Shown here: one piece after another, positions 27,930-29,545 of the stretch
Numbering within the stretch: the first letter of the stretch is position 1
Layout: the number at the start of each line of letters is the position of its first letter
Origin: Pigmentiphaga sp. NML080357
Lineage (GTDB): Bacteria > Pseudomonadota > Gammaproteobacteria > Burkholderiales > Burkholderiaceae_B
Length of the DNA: 64,000 nucleotides
Assembly (NCBI RefSeq): GCF_002188465.1
Contig: NZ_NINW01000043.1
Span: forward strand, 1 to 64,000
Direction: 5' to 3'
Made by a program: the position numbers and the translations under genes
The notes under the pieces: model-generated
Database searches by the model: none
Told to the model about the DNA's origin: nothing
Seen by the model: only the letters and a program-made list of their open reading frames with translations

Positions 27930-28502
27930 ATGCCCGTGAACCTTGGCGAGACGCCCGCATTGCGCAAGCCGGTTACCTTGCCCCCGCCGCCCTTGCCGCC
28001 GCGCGAGCTGGTATTCGAAGTGGAGCAGTTCCTGTATCGCGAGGCGCGCATGCTGGACGACGAGCGCTATCAGGAGTGGCTGGGCCTGATGACGGAGGAC
28101 GTGCATTACTGGATGCCCGGCATCCAGGCCCGCCACCGGCGCGACCGGAAGCCGCGACTGGATCCTGCGCGCATGGCCTTCTTCGACGACGACCTGCTCA
28201 ACATGCGCCGGCGCGTGACGCGCTTTCTCGACCCGACGGCGTGGGCCGAAGACCCTCCCACGAGGTCCTGCCATGTCATCTCGAACATCGAAGTGGAACT
28301 GACCGAGGCGCCGGACGAGTATCGCGCCTATTCCGCGTTCGTCAACTGCCGCGGCCGAGGAGAGACCGAGGAGTACTGGCTGTCTGGACGCCGCAAGGAC
28401 CTGCTACGGCGCGTCGAGGACGGGAGCCTGCGCCTGGCCTCGCGCGAGATCGTCATCACGCAGACCGTGCTGCTGGCCAAGAACCTGAACGTCTTCCTAT
28501 GA
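27930..28502 (+). CDS. Ring-hydroxylating dioxygenase, beta subunit
   Basis: The 190-residue protein has the beta-subunit features: an FLYREARMLDDERYQEWL helix, WMPGI, and a C-terminal strand ending NLNVFL. It forms the structural part of the alpha3beta3 enzyme. Its proline-rich N-terminus (LPPPPLPP) is unremarkable for the family. The last bases, GTCTTCCT plus the stop, are duplicated in the tandem repeat that follows, which shows where the repeat arose. Confidence 0.9.
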   Translation: MPVNLGETPALRKPVTLPPPPLPPRELVFEVEQFLYREARMLDDERYQEWLGLMTEDVHYWMPGIQARHRRDRKPRLDPARMAFFDDDLLNMRRRVTRFLDPTAWAEDPPTRSCHVISNIEVELTEAPDEYRAYSAFVNCRGRGETEEYWLSGRRKDLLRRVEDGSLRLASREIVITQTVLLAKNLNVFL

Positions 28503-28741
28503 GCGCGCCCGCCCGGCCGCCCGAAGGGGGCGCTCCCTCCCTTGGGGAGGATGTCGCGCAGCGACAGGAGGGTCTTCCTATGAGCGCGCCCGCCCGGCCG
28601 CCCGAAGGGGGCGCTCCCTCCCTTGGGGAGGATGTCGCGCAGCGACAGGAGGGTCGTCCGGTGAGCGCGCCCGCCCGGCCGCCCGAAGGGGGCGCTCCCT
28701 CCCTTGGGGAGGATGTCGCGCAGCGACAGGAGGGCTCACAA
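28499..28741 (+). repeat. Three 81-bp tandem repeats fused to the dehydrogenase reading frame
   Basis: Units span 28499-28579, 28580-28660 and 28661-28741. The first 70 or so bases are identical in all three; only the last ten differ. Each unit contains hairpins (CCTCCC/GGGAGG and TGTCGC/GCGACA), an AGGAGG Shine-Dalgarno and, at the right spacing, the start codon of the next unit (ATG, ATG, then GTG). The eight bases before unit 1 (GTCTTCCT) reappear at the end of unit 1, consistent with replication slippage. The core resembles GC-rich extragenic repeats that I recall from Bordetella-like genomes. Confidence 0.9.
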
Positions 28742-29545
28742 GTTATCGCGCCCGGCTGGCTGCCGGGCCAGGTGGCGCTGGTTACCGGCGCGGCCGCCGG
28801 CATAGGCCGCGCCGTGGCGGAGCGCTATCTCGACGAGGGCGCGGCCGGGGTGGTGTGCGTGGACGCCGACGAAGCCGGACTGCGGGACCTGGCCGGCCGC
28901 CATGCGGGCCGCATCGAGACCGTGGCGGGCGACGTGCGCGACTACGCCGTCCATGAGCGGGCGGTAGGCCGCGCGCTGGCCGTCTACGGCCGGCTGGACA
29001 TCCTGGTGGGCAACGCCGGCGTGTTCGATTTCCGCCGCCCGTTGCGCGGCTATACGGCACCGGCGCTGGCCGCCACCATGGACGAGCTGTTCGGGATCAA
29101 CCTGCGCGGCTACCTGTACGCCGCCATGGCGGCGCGCGAGGCGCTGGAGGCCGCCGCGGGATGCATGATCTTCACCGCCTCGGTCGCGAGTTTTCATGCC
29201 GGCGGAGGCGGCGTGCTCTACACCATGGGCAAGCACGCGGTAGTGGGCATGGTGCGCCAGCTGGCCCTGGAGCTTGCGCCTCGCGTGCGCGTCAACGGTG
29301 TCGGGCCGGGCGGGACCTTGACCGGGCTGCGGGGCACCCGCGCCCTGGGACACGGCGAGCGGCACATCGGCGCCGATCCGCGGGCGTTCGACGAACGGGT
29401 GGCCGCAGCCGTCCCACTGGCCTTCGCGCAGCGGCCGCAGGACCACACCGGCCTCTATGTGCTGCTGGCCAGCCGCGACAACGCGAGGGCGGTCACCGGC
29501 GAGATATTCATGAGCGATGGCGGCGTCGCCGCGCGCTCGATCTAG
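28499..29545 (+). CDS. cis-Dihydrodiol dehydrogenase (BphB/HcaB-like SDR) with repeat-encoded N-terminus
   Basis: From ATG 28499 the product is 348 residues, of which the first 81 are three copies of a 27-residue repeat. The enzyme proper begins near residue 82. It has TGAAAGIG at 96-103, NAGVF, and the catalytic Y241-xxx-K245 in LYTMGKHA. The C-terminal half (LALELAPRVRVNGVGPGG) closely resembles BphB. It should oxidise the cis-dihydrodiol made by the upstream oxygenase to a catechol with NAD+. Translation could also begin at ATG 28580 or GTG 28661, each with its own AGGAGG. No conventional start codon exists at the family-typical position. Confidence 0.85.
   Translation: MSAPARPPEGGAPSLGEDVAQRQEGLPMSAPARPPEGGAPSLGEDVAQRQEGRPVSAPARPPEGGAPSLGEDVAQRQEGSQVIAPGWLPGQVALVTGAAAGIGRAVAERYLDEGAAGVVCVDADEAGLRDLAGRHAGRIETVAGDVRDYAVHERAVGRALAVYGRLDILVGNAGVFDFRRPLRGYTAPALAATMDELFGINLRGYLYAAMAAREALEAAAGCMIFTASVASFHAGGGGVLYTMGKHAVVGMVRQLALELAPRVRVNGVGPGGTLTGLRGTRALGHGERHIGADPRAFDERVAAAVPLAFAQRPQDHTGLYVLLASRDNARAVTGEIFMSDGGVAARSI

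Follow-up and report, generated by a model that had tools for sequence, protein, structure and literature searches.

Three tandem 81-bp units at the start of a Pigmentiphaga dehydrogenase gene are likely copies of a small mobile repeat that docks at ATGA stop/start overlaps

In an aromatic-degradation operon of Pigmentiphaga sp. NML080357, three near-identical units of 81 bp occupy the junction between a ring-hydroxylating dioxygenase beta subunit gene and a short-chain dehydrogenase gene, and they raise the question of what such an array is doing at the beginning of an enzyme. We analyzed the 64,000-nt stretch of DNA that contains it (the window; positions are counted from its first letter). 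Besides these two genes the operon encodes the alpha subunit of the dioxygenase, a LigB-type dioxygenase, an alpha/beta hydrolase and an HpaH-type hydratase. An earlier note had suggested that the array could be a tunable or phase-variable device built from an extragenic repeat. In our view the units are likely to be copies of a small mobile repeat, non-autonomous and here present three times in tandem, which docks at ATGA overlaps, is transparent to translation and is probably related to the published beta-proteobacterial repeat element (BRE). The features of the locus are collected in Table 1.

Table 1. Features of the array and its host genes (window positions)
Feature	Position	Strand	Basis or remark
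Ring-hydroxylating dioxygenase beta subunit gene (3-phenylpropionate/cinnamate type)	27930..28502	+	Pfam Ring_hydroxyl_B 7.9e-42; NF007479 above cut-off
Host flank GTCTTCCT	28491..28498	+	8 bases; copy inside unit 1 at 28572-28579
ATGA overlap of stop and start (where the dehydrogenase natively starts and the element docks)	28499..28502	+	array-free ATGA in L068, L069, L070
Stop TGA of beta gene	28500-28502	+	
Short-chain dehydrogenase gene (dihydrodiol dehydrogenase type)	28499..29545	+	adh_short residues 91-279, 2.4e-37
Repeat unit 1	28499..28579	+	27 codons; begins with ATG at 28499
Hairpins of unit 1	28501-28510/28526-28535, 28536-28541/28545-28550, 28553-28557/28561-28565	+	pair counts
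AGGAGG, unit 1	28566..28571	+	8 nt 5′ of ATG 28580
Repeat unit 2	28580..28660	+	first codon ATG
AGGAGG, unit 2	28647..28652	+	8 nt 5′ of GTG 28661
Repeat unit 3	28661..28741	+	first codon GTG
AGGAGG, unit 3	28728..28733	+	followed by GTT 28742, not a start
Degenerate partial fourth unit	28742..28759	+	sequence; compare array end in L072

The tandem structure described earlier was recovered both by TRF (period 81, 3.0 copies, 98% matches and a score of 467 at 28491-28734, by far the highest of 10 rows) and by the ATG register at 28499-28741. Every unit is in frame, as had been stated, and the 27 codons of each are joined to the 348-aa open frame of the dehydrogenase, whose residues 1-81 are thus encoded by repeats; the dehydrogenase also matches NF004849 at 3e-90, yet under the cut-off. 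An AGGAGG does stand 8 nt before the ATG and GTG codons, but each of these Shine-Dalgarno (SD) sequences precedes the first codon of the next unit, which corrects the earlier description; inspection of the sequence upstream of the first ATG (28499) revealed no visible SD-like sequence, and the SD of unit 3 faces GTT. Because the third AGGAGG precedes GTT, two internal starts remain in the array, at 28580 and 28661, and possible products predicted from the sequence are of 348 aa (from 28499), 321 aa (28580) and 294 aa (28661). The recurrence of the eight bases before unit 1 at the end of that unit was also borne out. Unit 1 has thus taken its spacer from the host flank, as expected after tandem duplication, and the proposed growth by slippage fits. 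In predicted folds this host-derived spacer (UCUUCCU, within 28572-28579) is able to pair with the AGGAGG of unit 1, which may weaken initiation at ATG 28580 relative to GTG 28661.

Three copies is the count in the assembly, and since another array of the family sits at contig ends (C46 and C4), assemblers may collapse or break such arrays. Contigs C46 (1-155; L074) and C4 (1-237; L072) of this genome (G000) end inside an array with matching units, and they may be neighbours split by the repeat; copy numbers in draft genomes are uncertain. The 72 core bases of unit 3 are identical to those of units on these two contigs.

The array is absent from three relatives (G002, G004 and G008), in which ATGAATACACGG..., the native start of the dehydrogenase, comes next after the beta gene. 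Sixteen loci of the Pigmentiphaga sp. NML080357 genome were fetched and 13 examined, and at 12 of these 13 the insertion point corresponds to an ATGA in relatives; at the other (L079), located at the 3′ end of a gene, the relative has no ATGA. L072 and L074, at contig ends, and L081 stand outside this table of empty sites. Among close relatives (a comparison that leaves out L226), five of seven loci (L102, L103, L104, L109 and L111) differ from their empty counterparts by exactly 81 bp, and two (L106 and L113) differ by other lengths. At the five, an empty ATGAGC corresponds to a filled ATGAGC - unit - RTGAGC (GCGAGC in L104), giving a candidate target-site duplication with ATGA on the left and, on the right, RTGA in four cases and GCGA in one. 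As the targets read ATGAGC, the duplication could be anything from TGA to TGAGC. Shorter orthologous copies of 54, 66 and 69 bp (L118, L236 and L116) are all multiples of three.

That the array is no chance repeat follows from the 32 matches that one unit finds in the same genome (40 of 49 candidates were scored). With a covariance model, members were detected in 8 of the 11 genomes that represent the genus and, with a broader form of it, in 81 of 268 genomes of the bacterial family (21 of 43 genera), and a stricter cut-off gave 16 of 399 genomes sampled from the order, including three from that bacterial family. An exact pattern matched 97 stretches in named genomes; the 80 listed came from Pigmentiphaga, Verticiella, Candidimonas, Achromobacter, a Bordetella MAG, Aromatoleum, Thauera, Pseudothauera, Azoarcus, Zoogloea and others, so that members are found in Alcaligenaceae and Rhodocyclales, with no Comamonadaceae named among those 80. 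The genes that follow the element are diverse. At nine loci of the Pigmentiphaga sp. NML080357 genome the downstream proteins belong to different families (CbiX, uracil-DNA glycosylase, two transporter permeases, an FAD oxidoreductase, pantothenate kinase, heptosyltransferase, an alpha/beta hydrolase and an FMN dehydrogenase). Units at separate loci are sometimes identical in their core, and copies inside this genome are on average 91.6% identical to one another versus 87.5% to copies in other genomes of the genus. An excess of within-genome identity was also seen in G002, G003 and G004, on few pairs, and none was seen in G005, G006 and G008.

To what kind of site the element goes was assessed over 149 analysable loci, 106 from Alcaligenaceae and 43 mostly from Rhodocyclales. 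Left out beforehand were 4 of 116 loci without an HMM hit, 32 of 80 named loci whose genera had already been counted, and 11 further loci at an edge or lacking a complete unit; coding frames were called with the codon usage of six genes of the window. In these counts, which do not represent independent events since many loci are orthologous or share their length by descent (set 1 includes, for example, L102/L114, L104/L107/L110, L075/L113/L119 and the duplicated pair L123/L124), the upstream gene lies on the element's TGA grid at 80/106 and 36/43 loci and the downstream gene is in sense orientation at 98/106 and 41/43, with the next gene on the opposite strand at 5/106. RTGA at the element start, an upstream gene on the TGA grid and a sense downstream gene coincide at 68/106 and 33/43 loci, a count that excludes CTGA starts; the same position test applied to the window outside the array was passed by 9 of 340 ATGA and 2 of 274 GTGA. 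The element occupies a stop/start overlap and becomes coding, and the term extragenic in the earlier description is not supported. Two kinds of locus in this collection are worth recording separately. L123 and L124 (G006) have element flanks that are identical as printed, which suggests a duplicated segment or an assembly duplication, and L112, L117 and L122 are similar loci with 5′-altered copies that are in frame with the downstream gene and have an upstream flank without a clear sense coding gene.

The reading frame through the repeats provides the main argument that they are translated. Among 139 loci with a sense downstream gene, the first ATG, GTG or TTG, or a restart behind the element's own SD, is in frame with that gene at 125 (87/98 and 38/41); of the remaining 14, ten have arrays that are in frame with the gene but begin with another codon and four are out of frame. 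The restart codon has an offset of 7 behind GGAGGG in 58/65 and 33/35 cases. The link to translation initiation that had been proposed is supported. Two length forms were distinguished. The 81-bp form fuses to the downstream gene in frame, and the 83-bp form, which is characteristic of Rhodocyclales, encodes a mini-ORF of about 28 codons. In 34 of 36 single-unit cases this mini-ORF ends one base inside the next start (RTGA), so that a stop/start overlap is recreated at both ends of the element. The length from start to restart, modulo three, was 0 at 49, 2 at 48 and 1 at 3 of the 100 loci with a restart, a count weakened by length sharing through ancestry; class 1, with which the unit would be neither fused to the gene nor overlapping its start, is avoided. 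Thirteen type A loci of a later set, taken from other families and without a 40-mer in common with those counted before, fell into classes 0, 2 and 1 in 3, 10 and 0 cases, with the downstream gene in sense at 13/13 and the upstream gene on the TGA grid at 10/13; it was drawn from 20 loci, of which 7 with reverse type B elements or opposite-strand flanking genes were set apart. Neighbouring units are spaced by a multiple of three in 45 of 58 pairs over the whole set. In 31 in-frame Alcaligenaceae loci, the window array included, no restart follows the last complete unit. Of these, 22 begin with ATG, so there initiation must use the first start, a further one within the array or one inside the gene. 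A longer variant exists in G401 (L370, L371 and L372; 88-nt matches), in which extra sequence separates the first helix from the second, with the gene frame in class 2 from the first start at 3/3 loci.

Insertion at ATGA, three covarying hairpins, a constant distance from the SD to the regenerated start and a constraint on reading frame are directly seen; from the frame patterns we infer the following route of ribosomes through the units. The element would insert at ATGA stop/start overlaps between co-directional genes, leaving the upstream gene to terminate on its own TGA. With the 81-bp form, as here, ribosomes would start at the native ATG and read the 27-codon unit or units as an N-terminal extension, and with the 83-bp form they would translate the mini-ORF, which ends on a TGA that overlaps the start to follow. 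Whichever the form, the AGGAGG of the element could allow fresh initiation of the downstream gene at the RTG, where that codon is intact. Insertion would then be nearly silent for both genes and the repeat would be free to spread. At the dehydrogenase locus, tandem duplication would have expanded one insertion to three units where it lay.

An unlikely alternative is the device of the earlier note, in which copy number would set the number of start sites, and with it the level or the N-terminus of the dehydrogenase, and the array would be kept for that purpose. The units do carry an SD and a start, and copy number does vary between species at orthologous loci: across species we counted 1 plus a partial, 3, 1 diverged, 0 and 0 units at the coaX locus and 2 plus a partial, 1, 1, a remnant and 0 at the ung locus, and an oxidoreductase locus differs as well. 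For BRE loci, too, strain-to-strain differences in copy number have been reported (PMC3110155, as "data not shown" in the available text). Against this, since the units are whole codons, changes in copy number should not switch the dehydrogenase off, and in-frame units of this kind do not behave as an on/off contingency locus. The same element precedes unrelated genes, the dehydrogenase does without an array in the three relatives above, and the third SD here has lost its start. No such device need be assumed to account for the array.

A structured RNA element, concerned with processing, stability or the supply of an sRNA, with the start-codon position being secondary, has the same small share of our confidence. 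Three hairpins are supported by covariation. In a set of 39 diverse units, 38 of them distinct, pairing holds in 92.9% of cells over the three helices, both partners vary in 10 of 19 pairs, and the covariation score is 0.164 versus at most 0.069 for slid versions, with 0 of 500 shuffles as high; the first helix drifts in sequence and is mostly still paired (87.9% of cells). An 80-nt RNA has moreover been reported from a BRE locus of Bordetella pertussis (PMC3110155, in the text available). However, the near absence of class 1 lengths (3/100) and the stop/start overlap of the mini-ORF (34/36) point to translation, and no Rfam family matches the unit at E up to 1.

A role as a functional peptide module at the N-terminus, maintained for the amino acids it supplies, is very improbable. 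The peptide of the 81-bp form (MSAPARPPEG..EDVAQRQEG) is similar at many loci of the Pigmentiphaga sp. NML080357 genome, but in the 83-bp form the second half is translated in a different frame, so that another peptide results, while the DNA and the hairpins are conserved. We reject a peptide-level function because the two forms use different frames; the carriers are, in addition, unrelated enzymes and permeases. An assembly artefact or chance repeat, which the one other array at contig ends might bring to mind, has a negligible chance given that the family recurs at numerous loci and across numerous assemblies, among them the single-contig genomes G008 and G080.

We therefore return to the mobile, translation-transparent repeat and its means of movement. 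No transposase or other mobiliser was found for the element. REP and REPIN elements, which are associated with RAYT transposases, are short dispersed hairpin repeats, and the array family resembles them in this respect. A mobiliser of the RAYT/IS200 type was rejected, as Y1_Tnp (PF01797) occurred in 22 of 121 genomes of the bacterial family and none of these 22 is among the carriers, the carriers being the 15 and 81 genomes of two surveys and the 121-genome sample being taken to be that of the survey with 15 carriers. The units lack the terminal inverted repeats of a MITE, their ends, compared by eye, not being inverted repeats of each other. As for a plasmid or phage vehicle, one Pigmentiphaga-type unit gave no match when compared with 72,556 plasmid records and 50,697 phage records, a search that divergent copies could escape.

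The nearest published element is BRE (Hot et al., 2011; PMC3110155). In the available text of that work BREs are GC-rich chromosomal repeats of 75-91 bp, single or in tandem, that vary in copy number between genomes of Alcaligenaceae, Rhodocyclaceae and Comamonadaceae, including Azoarcus sp. EbN1; they are mostly intergenic and of unknown function, some overlap the ends of ORFs or sit in coding sequences, and they are suspected to be mobile. The array family likewise consists of dispersed units within this length range, single or in tandem, with copy number variable between genomes, and it shares part of the taxa and the suspected mobility, a likeness at the level of description on which we regard the two as probably related. 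G210 (4.1 Mb), from the genus of the Bordetella MAG (L275), has related elements, none of them at the published Tohama I coordinates. The words "Shine" and "in-frame" are absent from the main text on BRE (PMC3110155), in which the one passage with "start codon" concerns gene prediction, and among the open-access papers listed we saw no later work on BRE beyond a mention of bprJ (PMC8386462). Rickettsia palindromic elements, of about 105-150 bp, are intergenic or lie inside ORFs to which they are fused in frame (PMC10969869; PMC2229807, available text). They and the array family are alike in being short, mobile-like and fused in frame with unrelated genes, whereas insertion at the start codon, the SD, the regenerated start and the mini-ORF form set the array family apart. 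For in-frame fusion, the closest counterpart is thus provided by Rickettsia palindromic elements. In the portions of these sources available, docking at start codons is described neither for them nor for BRE; among the open-access papers listed we recognised none in which a repeat of this sort inserts at a start codon. The coupling of translation at ATGA overlaps is known (PMC6728339, available text) and is the gene arrangement in which the element sits; there it is an arrangement only, and here it is the docking site of a mobile repeat.

A sister form, type B, has related hairpins in the opposite orientation to the genes and was noted at L352, L355, L361, L363, L349 and L378-L384 (near position 1450-1700), in G210 and G206 (the genus of the Bordetella MAG) and families f43 and f49. 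At 8 of these 12 loci the gene strand, as read by a script, has an ATGA that opens a mini-ORF of 24-26 codons (for example MKQPPYSLRSFPPEGEVSSFGTAVRN), with its stop on the next ATG or slightly ahead of it by a few bases. Two units are present at L349, and the script placed L355, L379 and L382 wrongly. We give about even credence to the broader proposal that these repeats form a mobile class that docks at a translational junction: one that recognises ATGA overlaps, has a sister form in opposite orientation, brings a complete coupled mini-cistron (a start, hairpins, an SD and a stop overlapping the regenerated start), is tolerated by operons as single or tandem insertions and is held in length to two of three frame classes.

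The docking of a translation-transparent repeat at ATGA overlaps suggests how a repeat family without known function survives, namely by being invisible to translation. Its loci form a natural insertion series, with 0 to 4 units, two frame forms and empty sites in close relatives, for studying termination-reinitiation in operons. Start codons of downstream genes in carrier genomes may be misannotated, and in-frame copies would be a source of new N-termini.
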